Shown here piece by piece: positions 37,280-44,499 of a stretch of 64,000 nucleotides of DNA. Made by a program: the position numbers and the translations under genes. Source of the DNA: Erysipelothrix sp. HDW6C (GTDB taxonomy: Bacteria; Bacillota_I; Bacilli_A; Erysipelotrichales; Erysipelotrichaceae). The notes under the pieces were generated by a model. That model did no database searches. It was not told the origin of the DNA and saw only the letters and a program-made list of their open reading frames with translations. The DNA lies in assembly GCF_011299615.1 (NCBI RefSeq), contig NZ_CP049861.1, positions 1,984,001 through 2,048,000 of the forward strand, read 5' to 3'. Numbering within the stretch: the stretch's first letter is position 1; each line of letters begins with the position of its first letter.

Positions 37280-37308
37280 ATAATACCATTCGACCTAGGG
37301 TGTGTCAA
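37280..37308 (-). promoter_or_regulatory. rRNA operon promoter
   Basis: TTGACA, a 17-bp spacer ending in TGG, and TATTAT on the minus strand, with an A+T-rich stretch upstream that could act as an UP element. It is about 130 bases before 16S. Confidence 0.85.
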
Positions 37309-37401
37309 CACTATTTCGGTTTTATTTGGATAAAAAATAAAATAGTTTTCGATGTTCCAAAACCCCTAGTTTTTATTCCTTATATATAGGAGTCGGAATG
37401 A

Positions 37402-37434
37402 TAAAAAAACTGTTGTCGTGAAAGACAACAGTTT
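37402..37434 (-). terminator. Terminator of the aromatic ABC operon
   Basis: Eleven-base arms AAACTGTTGTC and GACAACAGTTT with a six-base loop and T-run on the minus strand, right after the ATPase stop. Confidence 0.92.
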
Positions 37435-37439
37435 GACCA

Positions 37440-38219
37440 TTAAATGGTATCTGCAAATGTATCTTCATGCTCTAAGAAAAGACGAATCAAATCGCTGCGT
37501 TGTAATTTGTCTTTCGCTTCCCCTTTAACATCGTAAATAATTTCGCCACGATGGAACATAATAAGGCGATCACCATAATCAAGAGCGTGTTGGAGATTAT
37601 GTGTAACCATAATTGATGTAATGTTTCTCTCTTTAATCATTTTATCTGTGAGTTTCATAATCGCTTCAGAGCTTTTTGGATCTAAAGCAGCTGTGTGTTC
37701 ATCCAAAAGCAGTACTTCTGGGTTGTTCATGAGCGCCATCAAAAGTGAAAGTGCTTGGCGTTGTCCACCCGATAGTTGACCTACTTGAACGTGTAGTTTG
37801 TCTTCGAGTCCTAAATCTAAGGTAGCAAGTTGCTCTTTGAAGAAAGCATCCTTATCATGGCGCACCGCTTTTCCAAGATTAAAGAGTTTTCCTTTGTTGA
37901 CAGCCATCGATAAATTTTCAAGAACCGTGAGTGATGGGGATGTTCCTGCAACCGGATCTTGGTATACTCGTGATATTGTTTTGAACCGTCGGAAATCCTT
38001 AATCTTCAGAAGGTTATTTCCCTTGAATCCGATTGCGCCTGCATCGGGTTTGACTTGCCCACACAACATATTGAGCAATGTCGATTTACCACTACCATTT
38101 GATCCTATAATAGTAATAAACTCACCATCCTCGACATCCAAACTCAAACTATCGTAAAGAGTTGTCTCCGCCAACGAATTCTTATTGAATTTTTTATGTA
38201 TATTTTCGAATTGAATCAT
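37440..38219 (-). CDS. ATP-binding protein of a TrpXYZ-like ABC importer
   Basis: A 259-residue ATPase with Walker A G-S-N-G-S-G-K-S-T (near 37), signature L-S-G-G-Q-R-Q-A-L-S, Walker B L-L-L-D-E-H-T-A-A-L-D (His after Glu instead of Pro) and the H-loop V-T-H. The D-E-H-T-A-A-L-D-P form is typical of the putative tryptophan/tyrosine transporter ATPases. Its ATG shares a base with the permease stop (TGATG). Last gene of the unit; it would serve all three binding proteins encoded upstream. Confidence 0.88.
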   Translation of the reverse strand: MIQFENIHKKFNKNSLAETTLYDSLSLDVEDGEFITIIGSNGSGKSTLLNMLCGQVKPDAGAIGFKGNNLLKIKDFRRFKTISRVYQDPVAGTSPSLTVLENLSMAVNKGKLFNLGKAVRHDKDAFFKEQLATLDLGLEDKLHVQVGQLSGGQRQALSLLMALMNNPEVLLLDEHTAALDPKSSEAIMKLTDKMIKERNITSIMVTHNLQHALDYGDRLIMFHRGEIIYDVKGEAKDKLQRSDLIRLFLEHEDTFADTI

Positions 38220-39103
38220 CAGACAGATGCTCCTTTCCCAAGTAACTTATTGATTAAGATTGCCCCCACAAAGATGACAACCGTTGCCAGTTTCAAGAAC
38301 TGTGGATCCATATTGAATTTCAGTGCTAAAGCAATAATGAATCGGTAAACAATCGCTCCAAGAATTACCATTGTCGTTTGTTTTAACTTCAGTTTTCCAA
38401 AGAGTGTTGTTCCTAAGATGACTGATGATAATCCCAAGACAACCATTCCGGTTCCAAGGGAGATATCAAAGTAGCGTCCTACCGATGCAGCAACACCACC
38501 ACTAAAGGCAACAATTGCATTCGCAAGCGCTAATCCTAGAATTTTTACCAACCCCACACTGTGACCGAATGTTGTCACAAGATTTGGATTGTCTCCTGTA
38601 ACTTTCAACAAGTAACCGACGCGTGTTTTTAATAAGCTATCGATTGCGAGTTTAACAACGAGGACCAAAATCACCATAATAATGATTTGGTAATTATCGA
38701 TTAGAAATGCGGGGGCACCCATATTCTCTAACCATGTGGTTGAGAATATGTTTTCGTATTTGAATAATGGAATGTTTGACTTTCCACCCGCAACCATAAG
38801 GTTGATTGAGTACAAGCCAGTCATTACCAAAATTCCACTCAACAGAGCCGTAATGCCAAGTTTTACATGGAAGAATCCCGTAACAACGCCTGCAAGAAAT
38901 CCTGCAAGTAGGGAAACCAACAACGCCAACCATGGGTTGACACCATCTACAATTAATATCGCACTCACAGCAACACCCAATGGGAATGTTCCATCAACGC
39001 TCAAATCAGGAATATCCAATACTTTATAGGACAACATGACCCCCATCGACATAATGCCGTAGAGGAGTCCTTGTACACTTACATCAATTATAAAATCCAA
39101 CAT
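38219..39103 (-). CDS. Permease of a TrpXYZ-like ABC importer
   Basis: A 294-residue membrane protein of the branched-chain/ribose-type permease superfamily, with eight or more hydrophobic segments. The start D-V-S-V-Q-G-L-L-Y-G-I-M-S-M-G-V, then L-D-I-P-D-L-S-V-D-G-T-F-P-L-G, is the hallmark of the putative tryptophan/tyrosine permease group. One base separates it from the binding-protein stop. It is the only permease in the locus. Confidence 0.88.
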   Translation of the reverse strand: MLDFIIDVSVQGLLYGIMSMGVMLSYKVLDIPDLSVDGTFPLGVAVSAILIVDGVNPWLALLVSLLAGFLAGVVTGFFHVKLGITALLSGILVMTGLYSINLMVAGGKSNIPLFKYENIFSTTWLENMGAPAFLIDNYQIIIMVILVLVVKLAIDSLLKTRVGYLLKVTGDNPNLVTTFGHSVGLVKILGLALANAIVAFSGGVAASVGRYFDISLGTGMVVLGLSSVILGTTLFGKLKLKQTTMVILGAIVYRFIIALALKFNMDPQFLKLATVVIFVGAILINKLLGKGASV

Positions 39104-39104
39104 T

Positions 39105-40064
39105 TTATCGCACAGCCGCTCTTTCTAAAATACTTTGCGGAATCTCAATTCCAAGTTTCTCCGCCATTTCTTTACTTACTGAGAGTTCCGTATCATCCGA
39201 AGTTTGTACGGGAATATCTGCAATATTTTTTCCATCAATTAGAATTTCCTTAATCATAACGCCAGCAATCTTGCCAAGATTGAAGTAGCTTACCGAATCT
39301 GACGCGAAGATTCCTTGATCAAATTGACCATCCTCTGCCATAAACACCGGTTTGTTTTGTTTCAATGCTTGTTCAACGACAAGGCCTGTAGCTGTAGCAA
39401 TCATGTTATCATTCACAATAAACAACGCATCGGAATCTGTTGCAACCTGTGTTGCAGCACTGGCAATCTCACTAGCATTGCTGACACCTTTTTCAAGAAC
39501 TGACAATCCCAATCCTTGGGCAATTTCTTTAACTTCTATAATTTGATTTTGGCTATTAACCTCACTGGTATTAAATAGAATACCAATCGTTTTCATTTCG
39601 GGAAGCATTTCTTGCATCAGTTTCACTTGTTTTTCCAACGGCGGTAAATCACTAACACCCGTTATGTTTCCTTCTGGTTTGGCAATGTTCTCAACAAGCC
39701 CCGCGGCTTTCGCGTCTGATACAGCACTGAATATAACAGGAATGTTTGTTCCCTCCACAGCAGTAAGCGCAATTTGAGCGGATGGCGTTGCAATCGCGTA
39801 GATTAAATCAACTTTCTCACTCACAAATTGGCTCGCAATAATTGTTGCATTGCTTGCATCTTCATTTGCGTTCTTAACCTCAACCTTGATGCGACCACTA
39901 ACTCCTGCCTCTTCAAGTCCCTTAACCATTCCATCTAACGAGGCATTGAGTGCTGGATGTTCGCCCCAATTCAATACCCCGACCGTAAACTCTGATTTCT
40001 CTTTCGATGCGCACCCTGTTAATACCAGTACCATCATTAATACGATTGCAATTGTCTTTTTCAT
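39105..40064 (-). CDS. TrpX-like substrate-binding lipoprotein C (next to permease)
   Basis: A 319-residue lipoprotein with lipobox L-T-G-C. The family pattern of putative Trp/Tyr ABC binding proteins is clear: F-T-V-G-V-L-N-W-G-E-H-P-A-L near 30, I-A-T-P-S-A-Q-I-A, P-V-I-F-S-A-V-S-D and N-I-T-G-V-S-D. It is about 50% similar by eye to the two other copies upstream. AAGGAGA lies nine bases before the ATG and just downstream of an attenuator terminator. The leader peptide holds Trp, Phe and Tyr codons, suggesting broad aromatic control; true ligand unproven. Confidence 0.88.
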   Translation of the reverse strand: MKKTIAIVLMMVLVLTGCASKEKSEFTVGVLNWGEHPALNASLDGMVKGLEEAGVSGRIKVEVKNANEDASNATIIASQFVSEKVDLIYAIATPSAQIALTAVEGTNIPVIFSAVSDAKAAGLVENIAKPEGNITGVSDLPPLEKQVKLMQEMLPEMKTIGILFNTSEVNSQNQIIEVKEIAQGLGLSVLEKGVSNASEIASAATQVATDSDALFIVNDNMIATATGLVVEQALKQNKPVFMAEDGQFDQGIFASDSVSYFNLGKIAGVMIKEILIDGKNIADIPVQTSDDTELSVSKEMAEKLGIEIPQSILERAAVR

Positions 40065-40091
40065 AATCTATCTCTCCTTATATTAAAACCA

Positions 40092-40118
40092 ACAAAAAAG
40101 CCGCTAACTACACGGCTT
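40092..40118 (-). terminator. Attenuator terminator C
   Basis: AAGCCG and CGGCTT arms, then six T, ending about 10 bases before the SBP C ribosome binding site. Its 5' arm AGCCGTGTAG (40117-40108) can instead pair at nine of ten positions with CTACAGGGCT (40160-40151), which in turn can be held by AGCCTGT (40198-40192). Confidence 0.75.
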
Positions 40119-40207
40119 CAAGTAATGATTGAAATAAGTAAGATTATTCGAGCCCTGTAGATTTTAGTAACACAAAATAGCTAATATCCACACAGGCTAT
40201 TAACTAA

Positions 40208-40270
40208 TTAACTAAAATAATAGAAGCTCCATTGTTGGGCTTGACTTGAAATGACGTTTGTATTTTTCAT
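40208..40270 (-). CDS. Leader peptide C, Trp/Phe/Tyr-rich (20 residues)
   Basis: MKNTNVISSQAQQWSFYYFS, with five aromatic residues among the last seven. It begins about 27 bases after the likely transcription start and has AAAGG upstream. The dense aromatic codons sit before competing RNA hairpins and a terminator, which is the layout of amino-acid-sensing attenuators such as trpL and pheL. The peptide itself probably has no function beyond its translation. Confidence 0.72.
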   Translation of the reverse strand: MKNTNVISSQAQQWSFYYFS

Positions 40271-40296
40271 ATGTTGTTCCCAACCTTTCTGTTACT

Positions 40297-40325
40297 ACAA
40301 TAGCAAACCTTTTGACGGTATGCAA
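40297..40325 (-). promoter_or_regulatory. Promoter C of the aromatic locus
   Basis: TTGCAT and TATTGT with a 17-bp spacer on the minus strand, about 30 bases past the stop codon of binding protein B. It shares its -10 and spacing with promoters A and B. Confidence 0.7.
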
Positions 40326-40354
40326 CCCCTAAACACATTTTTGTTGAAAAAGTT

Positions 40355-41260
40355 TCATTCAACAATGTAAGTTTTCAGATCGTCCGGAACTTCCAGTTTC
40401 ATTATCTGTGCAACTTCACCATTTATCTTTGTTTCTACTTTACGCGGTAAGTCAATGGATACCGGCTCCCCATTCAATGCCTTGACCATCATTTCGCCAG
40501 CCTGACGGCCCAAATCTGTATAACTAATCGAGACACTCGCAAGGATCCCCTCTTCAAATTGTCCGTCTTCGGTTGCATAAACTGGAATTTCAGCTTTTGT
40601 AGCCCCATCAACAATCATTGCAGTATTGGACACATTGAGATCATCCGTTATCAAATAGATTGCATCGACTTCGCGCACAAGAGATGGGAGTGCAATCGCC
40701 AGTTCTTGAGCATCATTTACCCCACGCTCGACAATTTCAAAACCGCTATTTTCTGACGCCGTCTTTACTTGTTCAATTTGGTACACACCATTGACATCCC
40801 CAGTACGGTAAACCATTCCAATGCGTTTCACCTGAGGTGTCAACGTTTGTATTAATGCAAATTGCTCACGATAAGGTGCGACATCACTCACCCCACCTAG
40901 TGTCTGCAATTCAATACCCAGTGATGCAGGATCACTTACTGCTCCAAAGACAATGGGTGTGTCCTGCCCTTCAAATACATTAATCACAGCTTGTGTCGCC
41001 TGCGTTGTTATTGCGAACACACCGTCTATAGGGTTGTCTGAAAGACTTTGTGCGTTCAACATGAGGGTTGAAGCATCCGCATTGGCATTTTTATATACAA
41101 CCGCAATGTCGTGCTCTGCCATCACTTGGGCAAACCCCTCATACGTATCTGTTAGTGATGCAAAGTCACCAAACTGAAGTACCCCCACACTTTGCTGTGA
41201 GGATGGTGCACACCCTGTGATTATCAATAAAGCAAAAATAATAAATATGTAGCGTTTCAT
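40355..41260 (-). CDS. TrpX-like substrate-binding lipoprotein B
   Basis: A 301-residue lipoprotein (lipobox I-T-G-C) of the same family as its neighbours: S-V-G-V-L-Q-F-G-D-F-A-S-L, P-I-V-F-G-A-V-S-D, T-G-D-V-N-G-V-Y-Q-I. It is the most divergent of the three copies; for example N-V-S-N-T-A-M in place of the I-T-D-N-M. The ATG at 41260 has AAGGAGG seven bases upstream; the longer frame begins inside the leader terminator. It has no permease of its own. Confidence 0.85.
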   Translation of the reverse strand: MKRYIFIIFALLIITGCAPSSQQSVGVLQFGDFASLTDTYEGFAQVMAEHDIAVVYKNANADASTLMLNAQSLSDNPIDGVFAITTQATQAVINVFEGQDTPIVFGAVSDPASLGIELQTLGGVSDVAPYREQFALIQTLTPQVKRIGMVYRTGDVNGVYQIEQVKTASENSGFEIVERGVNDAQELAIALPSLVREVDAIYLITDDLNVSNTAMIVDGATKAEIPVYATEDGQFEEGILASVSISYTDLGRQAGEMMVKALNGEPVSIDLPRKVETKINGEVAQIMKLEVPDDLKTYIVE

Positions 41261-41285
41261 ACGACTACCTCCTTCTAGAGAATAC

Positions 41286-41313
41286 AAAAAAAGACCGCGT
41301 GTCATACGCGGTC
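41286..41313 (-). terminator. Attenuator terminator B
   Basis: GACCGCGT, loop ATGAC, ACGCGGTC and seven T on the minus strand, about 12 bases before the ribosome binding site of binding protein B. It would also end read-through from gene A. I found no clear antiterminator pairing to its 5' arm. Confidence 0.85.
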
Positions 41314-41374
41314 TCCATGAAAAATGTTCAATGAATGCAGTGTGTGCCCAAGCGAAAAGGGCTACATCGTAACC

Positions 41375-41419
41375 CTAAGATTCAATTCGCTTGTTGCTCC
41401 ATCGTTGATTATGCATCAT
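41375..41419 (-). CDS. Leader peptide B, single Trp (14 residues)
   Basis: MMHNQRWSNKRIES, with AGAGGTG six bases upstream. The core C-A-A-C-R-A-T-G-G-A-G-C is shared with leader C, which supports common descent. Just after the Trp codon, AAGCGAA (41392-41386) can pair with TTCGCTT (41356-41350), enclosing AGGGTTAC paired with GTAGCCCT. A ribosome stalled at Trp would cover the first strand. One Trp codon makes this the weakest of the three leaders. Confidence 0.55.
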   Translation of the reverse strand: MMHNQRWSNKRIES

Positions 41420-41441
41420 TTTTTGCACCTCTGTTGAAAGA

Positions 41442-41470
41442 ACAATACCATACGGTTTGACGAATCGCAA
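41442..41470 (-). promoter_or_regulatory. Promoter B of the aromatic locus
   Basis: TTGCGA and TATTGT with a 17-bp spacer on the minus strand, beginning four bases past the stop of binding protein A. Shares CGTCAAA with promoter C. Confidence 0.7.
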
Positions 41471-41473
41471 GTC

Positions 41474-42436
41474 TTAGCGCTCAGCTTTTCGTGAAAGCAC
41501 ACTTTCAGGCAATACAATTCCCAATGTTTTCGCAACATCTTCATTTACATACAAGACTGTTGAATCGGATGTTACGACTGGAATATCTGCTGCTTTCTTA
41601 CCATTTTTTAAAATATCATTTATAATCGTTCCAGCTTCACGCCCTAAAGCGTGGTAGCTTAATGATTCCGTTGCTAGCAACCCCTCGTCAAATTGACCAT
41701 CTTCTGATGCGAAGACAGGAAGTTTAGCTGTATTGGCAACATCGACAATGGATGCCATCGCAGCAACAACCATATTATCTGTAATGTTGTAGAAAGCATC
41801 CACTTCAGATGATAATTGTTGCGCAGCTAATGTGATATCTTGGACATTGGATACGCCTTTGACAACAATTTCCAAGCCCAGTTCGCCAGCTACCGATTGT
41901 AACACTTCAATTTGAACCATGGAATTCACTTCACCAACATTATAAACAACGCCAATTTTCTTCGCATTTGGCAGAATCTCTTTAACAATACTTAATTGTT
42001 TTTTTGCCGGTGAGATATCACTGACACCAGTGACATTGCGACCGGGTTTCTCCATCGTTTCCACAAGGTCTGCTGCCACAGGATCGGTTACTGCATTAAA
42101 AACTACTGGAATTCCAGCGGCCTCAGCGGCATTGTATGCAGATTGAGCTGCGTTGGTTCCAATTGCGTAGATTACATCAACTTTATCGTTGACAAATTTA
42201 TTTGCCATCATATCCGCATTGGTTAGATCCCCTTGCGCATTTTGTAAATCAACAACATAATTCTCTTCACCGACTAATTCATTTAGCATCTCGACCATCC
42301 CATTGTAGGTCGCATCCAACGATGGGTGTTCTGCAAGCTGCAGGACCCCAATCTTCAATTTATCCCCATTTCCGTTTGACCCACATCCTGTGAGTACCAT
42401 CAACAACACCAGTAACGCTACAATTGTTTTTTTCAT
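41474..42436 (-). CDS. TrpX-like substrate-binding lipoprotein A
   Basis: A 320-residue lipoprotein (lipobox L-T-G-C) of the putative Trp/Tyr ABC binding family: K-I-G-V-L-Q-L-A-E-H-P-S-L-D near 30, A-I-G-T-N-A-A-Q-S-A, P-V-V-F-N-A-V-T-D-P, N-V-T-G-V-S-D-I. First of three paralogues; it must share the permease and ATPase 2.4 kb downstream. Its leader carries five Phe codons in a row, so phenylalanine is the most likely ligand, by inference from regulation only. AAGGAGG precedes the ATG directly after terminator A. Confidence 0.88.
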   Translation of the reverse strand: MKKTIVALLVLLMVLTGCGSNGNGDKLKIGVLQLAEHPSLDATYNGMVEMLNELVGEENYVVDLQNAQGDLTNADMMANKFVNDKVDVIYAIGTNAAQSAYNAAEAAGIPVVFNAVTDPVAADLVETMEKPGRNVTGVSDISPAKKQLSIVKEILPNAKKIGVVYNVGEVNSMVQIEVLQSVAGELGLEIVVKGVSNVQDITLAAQQLSSEVDAFYNITDNMVVAAMASIVDVANTAKLPVFASEDGQFDEGLLATESLSYHALGREAGTIINDILKNGKKAADIPVVTSDSTVLYVNEDVAKTLGIVLPESVLSRKAER

Positions 42437-42450
42437 AATTTCCTCCTTGC

Positions 42451-42479
42451 AAATAAAAAGCCTTGTCTCGACAAGGCTG
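42451..42479 (-). terminator. Attenuator terminator A
   Basis: AGCCTTGTC and GACAAGGCT with a two-base centre, then TTTTTATTT, ending just before AAGGAGG of gene A. The 5' arm AGCCTTGTCGA (42478-42468) can alternatively pair with TCGACTTGGCT (42512-42502): nine pairs around a two-base mismatch, a good antiterminator. Confidence 0.82.
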
Positions 42480-42557
42480 TATCCTAAGGAAATACTGAAT
42501 GAGCCAAGTCGATTTAACCAATAGAAAGTGGTTAATCTCGTTGGCGAAATTAACCGA

Positions 42558-42611
42558 TTATCTAAAGAAAAAGAAAAAGCTCTTATTTGTTCTTATTAAA
42601 ATGTTGGTCAT
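42558..42611 (-). CDS. Leader peptide A, five consecutive Phe (17 residues)
   Basis: MTNILIRTNKSFFFFFR and a TAA stop. AAAGG lies 12 bases upstream and the promoter 26 bases upstream. Directly after the stop, GGTTAAT (42555-42549) can pair with ATTAACC (42536-42530), which can instead pair with GGTTAA (42519-42514): competing helices whose choice depends on ribosome position. A run of Phe codons just before the stop and these helices is the classic sign of phenylalanine attenuation. Confidence 0.8.
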   Translation of the reverse strand: MTNILIRTNKSFFFFFR

Positions 42612-42636
42612 TGTAAACACCAACCTTTCTAAAGCA

Positions 42637-42665
42637 ACAATATCACAGTCAAATATCATTTACAA
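42637..42665 (-). promoter_or_regulatory. Promoter A of the aromatic locus
   Basis: TTGTAA and TATTGT with a 17-bp spacer on the minus strand. Back to back with the pepF promoter on the other strand. Confidence 0.7.
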
Positions 42666-42682
42666 TCATTTTCATGAAATTG

Positions 42683-42713
42683 TTGAAATTTCTTTCATTG
42701 TTAGTGATATACT
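42683..42713 (+). promoter_or_regulatory. pepF promoter
   Basis: TTGAAA, a 19-bp spacer and an extended -10 TGATATACT, 35 bases before the pepF ATG. Confidence 0.6.
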
Positions 42714-42747
42714 GTTACATATAGAAAATAGAAACAGGGAGAATATT

Positions 42748-44499
42748 ATGTATACATGGTCACTCGATGATTTATATAAAGGGTATGATGCATCATTCGA
42801 CAATGATGTAGCAGCTCTAGAAGTTGCAATAAAGGATATGAACGCTCGCGCAGAGTCACTTTCCACTGCACAAGATTTGGAATTATGGTTGGTAGAAGAA
42901 GCAAAACTAACCACACTTGCGCAGTCGTTATTAAGTTTTGTCTCACTGAGCATGGCAACAAATGCTCTTGATGAAGTAAGCAGTGCAAAGTATGGCTTAT
43001 TACAAAGTATGATGAGCAATACCTCACGTCCTTACGCATTATTCAAGCAGTTCTTAGCACAACACAAATCAGATTTTCCAGCTTGGGTTGCAAACAGTCC
43101 CCTCATTAAGGAACATGAATTCATCTTGCAAGAAATCATTGATCAAAGCGAATTTAACTTAAGTGAAGATGTGGAAGATGTCATTTCAAAAATGCGTATC
43201 AATGCTTCCTCAAACTGGAATAAGCTCCAAGGACATTTAACATCACTCACAACGATCGACTTGAACGGCGAAACGCAAACACTTTCATCCATTCGAAACT
43301 TGGCGTACAGCTCCGATCCAACCGTACGTAAAGATGCTTATGAGAAAGAACTTGAACTTTATACTAAGATTGATGACGCCGTTGCGTTTGCACTAAATAG
43401 TATTAAGGGAGAAGTTAACATCTTGTCCACATTACGCGGATACGAAAGTGCCCTTGACAAGACATTAATGGACTCAAGAATGTCCAAAAAGACATTGGAT
43501 GCATTGTTGGGAGCAATTGAGGCTTACCTACCAACTTTCCGTAAGTACTTCAAACACAAAGCCAAATTATTTGGACATGCAGATGGGTTGCCTTGGTATG
43601 ATCTCTTCGCACCATTTGAAACCGCAAACCCCAAAACATACTCAGTTGAAGAATCACGCGAGATGATAATTGAGAGCTTCAGTGACTTCTCCAATGACCT
43701 CGCTGATATGGCAAAGCGCGCTTACGATGATCGATGGATTGATTTTCTACCTCGAGAAGGAAAACGTTCAGGAGCATTTTGTTCTAACCAACCGCAAATT
43801 AAACAAAGCCGCGTCTTAACTAACTTTGATGGTTCAATCTCAGACATTGTAACCATTGCCCACGAACTTGGACATGCGTATCATGGAATGATGATTGAAG
43901 ACCTCTCGATACTGAATACCGATTACACGATGCCTGTCGCTGAGACAGCATCAACATTCTGCGAGAATGTCGTTCTGAACGCCGCTTTAAAAACCGCAAG
44001 TGATGAGGAAAAACTTGTCTTAATTGAAAACTCAATCTCTGACTTGGCGCAAATTACCGTCGACATCTTATCCCGCTATAAATTCGAAACTGAAGTCTTT
44101 GAACGTCGCAAACACGAATTTCTTTATGTAAATGATTTAAAACAAATCATGATTGACGCACAATTAGCTACCTATGGTGACGGTCTTGATGCAAACGTAC
44201 TTCATCCATACATGTGGCTCAACAAAGGACACTATTACAGTGGTGGACTCAGCTATTACAACTTCCCGTATGCGTTTGGTGGCCTCTTCGCACTGGGACT
44301 CTATGGAAAATTCCAAGCAGAGGGTGCATCTTTTGTACCGAAATATCAAGCACTTCTCAAAGCAACTACCACCGCAAGTTGTGAAGATGTCGCTGCAATG
44401 GCAGGCATCGATGTTACTTCACAAGCATTCTGGGAATCCAGTCTTGATGTTGTAGCAAAACGCATCGATGACTTTATTTCACTGACATCAACATTATAA
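42748..44499 (+). CDS. pepF: Oligoendopeptidase F (M3 family)
   Basis: A 583-residue zinc peptidase. The active site H-E-L-G-H-A-Y-H (near 371) and the downstream E-T-A-S-T-F-C-E third ligand are intact; the N-terminal W-S-L-D-D-L-Y and C-terminal Y-Y-N-F-P-Y-A-F-G motifs fit the M3B PepF clade. It cleaves 7-17-residue peptides in the cytoplasm and would supply amino acids. The ATG at 42748 follows AGGGAG; the open frame extends to 42499, but that stretch is the leader region of the opposite-strand transporter genes. Divergent from the aromatic importer. Confidence 0.93.
   Translation: MYTWSLDDLYKGYDASFDNDVAALEVAIKDMNARAESLSTAQDLELWLVEEAKLTTLAQSLLSFVSLSMATNALDEVSSAKYGLLQSMMSNTSRPYALFKQFLAQHKSDFPAWVANSPLIKEHEFILQEIIDQSEFNLSEDVEDVISKMRINASSNWNKLQGHLTSLTTIDLNGETQTLSSIRNLAYSSDPTVRKDAYEKELELYTKIDDAVAFALNSIKGEVNILSTLRGYESALDKTLMDSRMSKKTLDALLGAIEAYLPTFRKYFKHKAKLFGHADGLPWYDLFAPFETANPKTYSVEESREMIIESFSDFSNDLADMAKRAYDDRWIDFLPREGKRSGAFCSNQPQIKQSRVLTNFDGSISDIVTIAHELGHAYHGMMIEDLSILNTDYTMPVAETASTFCENVVLNAALKTASDEEKLVLIENSISDLAQITVDILSRYKFETEVFERRKHEFLYVNDLKQIMIDAQLATYGDGLDANVLHPYMWLNKGHYYSGGLSYYNFPYAFGGLFALGLYGKFQAEGASFVPKYQALLKATTTASCEDVAAMAGIDVTSQAFWESSLDVVAKRIDDFISLTSTL

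Follow-up and report, generated by a model that had tools for sequence, protein, structure and literature searches.

What does a short reading frame with five consecutive Phe codons sense at the head of a transporter operon, and how far into the operon does its control reach? The operon lies on the minus strand of the 64,000-nucleotide stretch of Erysipelothrix sp. HDW6C DNA analysed here (the window), and consists of three paralogous binding-protein genes (SBP1, SBP2 and SBP3), a permease gene and an ATPase gene:

41474..42436, minus strand: SBP1, first binding protein, PF04392 family (profile match)
40355..41260, minus strand: SBP2, second binding protein, ATG start at 41260 after AAGGAGG (PF04392 match)
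39105..40064, minus strand: SBP3, third binding protein, PF04392 family (profile match)
38219..39103, minus strand: permease, PF02653 (profile match)
37440..38219, minus strand: ABC ATPase, PF00005 (profile match)

All three binding proteins match PF04392, the wider family, and none reaches the 390-bit cut-off of the TrpX equivalog NF041285 (269.6, 173.9 and 264.2 bits for SBP1, SBP2 and SBP3, respectively). SBP1 resembles CD0873 (PDB 6hni), VC_1101 (3lkv) and SP1069 (3lft), members of the aromatic amino acid binding-protein family whose structures were solved with Tyr, Phe and Trp bound, respectively (PMC6816091). Upstream of the operon lies leader 1, and each of the three binding-protein genes is preceded by its own promoter-like site, a short ORF with a Shine-Dalgarno sequence and an intrinsic terminator. 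From sequence and modelling, we propose with a probability of roughly 0.87 that the paralogous leaders 1 and 3 both attenuate transcription in a ribosome-mediated manner, codon content setting the amino acid to which each responds, Phe for leader 1 (SBP1) and Tyr for leader 3 (SBP3). Leader 1 is composed of the following elements:

42637..42665, minus strand: promoter-like site, TTGTAA-17 nt-TATTGT with a TG-extended -10 (TGA TATTGT) (sequence; recurs in relatives)
42558..42611, minus strand: leader 1 ORF, MTNILIRTNKSFFFFFR followed by a stop codon, Phe run at 42578-42564, peptide end ...SFFFFFR (sequence, conservation)
42459..42555, minus strand: leader 1 switch with segments A (42555-42549), B (42536-42530) and C (42519-42502) and terminator D:E (42478-42459) (folding, covariation)

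The promoter-like site is below the threshold of a simple promoter scan; its -35, 17-nt spacer and TG-extended -10 recur in 11/11 leaders 1, at positions picked by best score. The helix GGTTAAT/ATTAACC (42555-42530) begins 2 nt past the stop codon, its ATTAACC arm finds an alternative partner in GGTTAA (42519-42514), and the terminator AGCCTTGT-CGAG-ACAAGGCT (42478-42459) runs into TTTTATTT. The 5′ arm of this terminator can also pair with CGACTTGGCT (42511-42502), forming 8 of 10 pairs with two U-U mismatches. The minus-strand promoter, the ORF, the competing helices and the terminator with its upstream-pairing arm are all present as the original prediction described them. Leader 1 is far better folded than its shuffled versions (z = -5.2). 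The window contains a single short ORF with five Phe codons in a row, and 10 Markov-shuffled windows contain none. A leader of the same layout, with Tyr codons, precedes SBP3:

40297..40325, minus strand: promoter-like site of leader 3, TTGCAT, 17 nt, TGC TATTGT (sequence)
40208..40270, minus strand: leader 3 ORF, MKNTNVISSQAQQWSFYYFS followed by a stop codon, Tyr codons, peptide end ...WSFYYFS (sequence, conservation)
40099..40206, minus strand: leader 3 switch with segments A (40206-40198), B (40186-40178) and C (40160-40151) and terminator D:E (40117-40099) (folding, covariation)

After the stop codon, leaders 1 and 3 share one five-segment switch, in which A pairs with B, B with C, C with D (the antiterminator) and D with E (the terminator). 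Note that in leader 1 (42630-42601, minus strand) and leader 3 (40290-40235, minus strand) the Shine-Dalgarno region GTTGG(G/T) can also pair with (A/C)CCAAC inside the leader ORF; this pairing, absent in some relatives, perhaps tunes leader translation.

We compared these leaders with their counterparts in the genus, where 12 of 13 genomes carry the operon whole or in part (the thirteenth being a draft, 88% complete), giving 11 leaders 1 and 12 leaders 3 at these genes. Counting the stop as -1, Phe is found at codon -6 in all 11 leaders 1, with TTT/TTC changes, and Tyr at codon -4 in all 12 leaders 3, with TAT/TAC changes; since the codons change synonymously, it is the amino acid that is kept and not merely a U-rich stretch. 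The leader 1 peptides end in SFFFFFR, SFFFFFS, SFFFFFT, SFFFNFR, SSFFYFR, STFFNFR or SFFFIFRN, and those of leader 3 in SFYYFS, SFYYYFS, SYYYYFS, SNYYYFR, SCYYYFS or SYYYS and, in two genomes, SFYYFYYYQ and SFYYFYYR. The check originally put forward, an alignment of relatives, comes out in favour of attenuation: across the leaders of the genus the Phe run of leader 1, the helices and the terminator are kept or covary, and the N-terminal halves of the peptides drift, leaving the aromatic run alone common to the leaders. Conserved peptide ends, including AQQ(W)S ahead of the Tyr run in most leaders 3, would also be expected if the nascent peptide, in a TnaC-like manner, acted with the free amino acid to arrest the ribosome, so that the free amino acid, rather than the charging of tRNA, would set the response. 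We consider such an arrest very unlikely, since conservation does not extend to the N-terminal halves and what the leaders have in common is the aromatic run only, since AQQ is missing in L040 and L042, and since three to five cognate codons placed such that a stall leaves A free are what charging-based attenuation needs.

The pairing scheme was then assessed by covariation. For A:B and C:D together, 94.8% of cells are paired, with 46 double-changed cells against 16.0 (sd 3.7) upon shuffling and no more than 4 with the partner slid along, and for D:E 100% are paired, with 21 double-changed cells, the paired fractions being biased upward by the hand-chosen helix segments. These counts indicate that D covaries with both C and E. 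This is difficult to reconcile with constitutive terminators placed after short promoters, for which the aromatic codons would be just U-rich sequence and the alternative pairing incidental. Intrinsic terminators are indeed common, as are U-rich runs in AT-rich genomes, and the terminator of leader 2 has no exclusive partner; yet, besides the double covariation of D, the codons of leader 1 are set apart from those of leader 3 by their second base (TTT versus TAT), with frame and aromatic identity kept in 11 and 12 leaders, and we therefore find constitutive termination hardly credible. One covariance model, built jointly on leaders 1 and 3, picks up both kinds at these loci, in keeping with the two leaders being paralogues; searched against 60 relatives, it found the switch at these loci only, marginal hits aside.

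Attenuation by ribosome position makes the terminator depend on where the ribosome stands, which we modelled by equilibrium, not co-transcriptional, folding with the ribosome placed on each codon in turn. Barring A from pairing, which mimics a ribosome on the stop codon, raises the mean terminator probability from 0.42 to 0.89. In the codon-by-codon scan, the mean is 0.39 on the Phe codons versus 0.92 at the stop codon for leader 1, and 0.51 on the Tyr codons versus 0.89 at the stop codon for leader 3. The stop-codon value exceeds the run average in 23/23 leaders (11/11 leaders 1 and 12/12 leaders 3), by a small margin in about a quarter of them; dependence on ribosome position is predicted in most homologues. 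In that quarter, namely leader 1 of L038 and L039 and leader 3 of L037-L040, the terminator is predicted to form at most ribosome positions along the run as well, and the stop codon gives just 0.32-0.40 in L045 (both leaders) and L047. In L045 (G006) the SBP1 gene carries an in-frame TAA, and its leader 1 has the weakest predicted stop-codon response (0.35); this attenuator may be decaying along with its gene. Because a ribosome on the last Phe codon before Ser already leads to termination in many leaders 3, Tyr is the better-placed sensed residue of that leader. Outside the genus, a diverged Tyr leader in L049, MKTELRAAMHQATYYYFIFS, has a matching profile, with 1.00 without a ribosome, 0.04-0.05 on the Tyr codons and 1.00 at the stop. 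A second one, L055 (G014), has the leader ORF MNKNENRSYYYYYYFRIMK before a single binding-protein gene and looks like a Tyr attenuator; on folding, the expected profile was not obtained and no clear switch appeared.

We propose that the leaders are translated and respond as follows. With charged tRNA-Phe (or tRNA-Tyr) in short supply, the ribosome would stall within the cognate codons, immediately ahead of A; A:B would then form, leaving C free for D, and RNA polymerase would read through into the binding-protein gene. When charged tRNA is plentiful, the ribosome would reach the stop codon and cover A, such that B:C and then D:E form and transcription terminates. For an untranslated leader, termination is also predicted in most cases: without a ribosome the terminator dominates in most leaders, which resembles classical attenuation.

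Related bacteria control the same transporter differently. Ahead of the orthologous genes, the sister family has T-boxes, as do several genera of the family to which the window genome belongs; the specifier, read from the stem I motif, is UAC or UUC in the former and, in some genera of the latter, probably UGG. With T-boxes in related genera, the leader RNA might itself sense tRNA or the amino acid, as a diverged T-box or an aptamer, the small ORF being incidental. We judge direct sensing extremely improbable. The T-box family RF00230 gave no hit in the window at its gathering score, nor any lower-scoring one in 37300-42800; no other Rfam family matched in the window, and at the operon there were just weak, unrelated hits below threshold. 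Moreover, an aptamer would have no need for the Phe and Tyr codons to keep their amino acid through synonymous changes, as they do. The window genome as a whole has 14 T-box matches, and a sub-threshold match (87.1 bits against the 93-bit cut-off) with UUC in the specifier position lies before pheS, outside the window (G000:C1:1569773-1569969, minus strand). This putative T-box and the Phe leader peptide together suggest that the same cell monitors the charging of tRNA-Phe through two RNA mechanisms. Overall, for the SBP1 gene, the interpretation of the five-Phe run before such helices as ribosome-mediated Phe attenuation is well supported by the conserved run, the covarying exclusive helices, the ribosome modelling and the Phe/Tyr T-boxes of the sister family.

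Between SBP1 and SBP2 lies leader 2, with a single Trp codon:

41442..41470, minus strand: promoter-like site of leader 2, TTGCGA, 17 nt, TGG TATTGT (sequence)
41375..41419, minus strand: leader 2 ORF, MMHNQRWSNKRIES followed by a stop codon, one Trp codon (sequence)
41349..41393, minus strand: paired element CAAGCGAA/TTCGCTTG enclosing AGGGTTA/TAGCCCT, two nested hairpins (sequence, conservation)
41290..41316, minus strand: strong terminator, separate from the nested hairpins (sequence scan, folding)

The leader 2 ORF is conserved (..WSN..R..), and the hairpins keep their pairing despite base changes across four distinct sequences. These hairpins were recognised by eye and in folds of single sequences; RNAalifold, run on the four together, did not return them. 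Folding found no mutually exclusive partner for the terminator. A classic Trp attenuator was considered and rejected, the terminator probability being 1.00 at every ribosome position; leader 2 thereby serves as an internal negative for the ribosome-position modelling. A tentative and rather doubtful extension is that Phe, Tyr and Trp are each sensed on their own within this operon. Codon substitution would have shifted the duplicated attenuators between Tyr and Phe while their binding proteins duplicated, and leader 2 would sense Trp via its one codon and an RNA element that would act on its terminator in an undescribed way.

How far the Phe control reaches follows from this arrangement. Scarcity of charged tRNA-Phe had been expected to open the operon; this agrees with our results for SBP1, but not for the whole operon, in which the leader 2 terminator and the Tyr leader 3 precede the permease and ATPase genes. 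Since a transcript from the leader 1 promoter has yet to pass both of these, the permease and ATPase depend most directly on leader 3. Calling the whole a Phe-controlled import system goes too far: leader 1 directly gates SBP1 only, and pocket residues do not reveal whether SBP1 prefers Phe. Two such residues published for CD0873, Glu263 and Tyr279 (PMC6816091), were tried as a guide to ligand preference; they do not classify, because SBP1, SBP2 and SBP3 alike, and also relatives under Phe or Tyr T-boxes, have Glu and Tyr. On the proposed reading, the binding proteins would each carry the amino acid sensed by their own leader. In L046 (G012), ~3 kb separate SBP1 from leader 2; this insert, with a nucleobase-type permease-like gene, a MerR-like regulator and a small protein recognised by eye, splits SBP1 and leader 1 from the rest, an arrangement that suggests that each leader and its binding protein form a module.

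In a tree, the genus has one group for each of SBP1, SBP2 and SBP3, and next to these lie the single-copy proteins from L049, L048 and Dielma fastidiosa; some deep forks are weak. The tree fits a history in which the binding protein was duplicated together with its leader and the codons then changed; the Tyr form of the leader would have come first. Chorismate synthase and TrpA have no match in the window genome, both searches being positive in 14/14 control genomes.

Leader-peptide attenuators are classical in proteobacteria (pheL, trpL, hisL). Leaders 1 and 3 have in common with them a cognate codon run in a short ORF, mutually exclusive antiterminator and terminator, and a decision by ribosome position; unlike them, they have the codon run upstream of the helices, a stop-codon ribosome that masks A and a five-segment chain, and they control transporter binding proteins as paralogous copies in one operon. 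Among Firmicutes, His leader-peptide attenuators occur in bacilli and Erysipelotrichales, the same broad lineage, likewise with cognate codon runs before attenuator hairpins and in place of T-boxes; they differ in sensing histidine and in preceding his biosynthesis or hisS-type genes, and the accessible text of these sources reports no tandem paralogues of differing codon specificity (PMC2965389, PMC9413887). The Leu-rich leader of Staphylococcus aureus ilv-leu also combines an amino-acid-rich peptide with alternative RNA structures in a Firmicute, with experimental support, but controls a biosynthesis operon and uses an antiterminator that pairs with the poly-U tail of the terminator (PMC5794164). 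The Trp T-box of Streptococcus suis trpXYZ governs the same transporter superfamily and is opened by uncharged cognate tRNA, but through direct tRNA binding, with no leader peptide and with one binding protein (PMC9382623). The literature searched, mostly papers available without subscription, yielded no report of aromatic leader-peptide control of this transporter or of paralogous attenuators of differing codon specificity in one operon.

The locus offers a clean natural case of T-box sensing versus ribosome stalling on orthologous transporter genes in related bacteria. With two homologous attenuators in one operon whose sensing codons differ mainly as TTT versus TAT, the re-tuning of a sensor by point mutations becomes directly testable. 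The proposed mechanism predicts that binding proteins sharing one permease would be induced separately, each by the amino acid in short supply, and leader codons would then help to read the specificity of transporters in aromatic auxotrophs from sequence.
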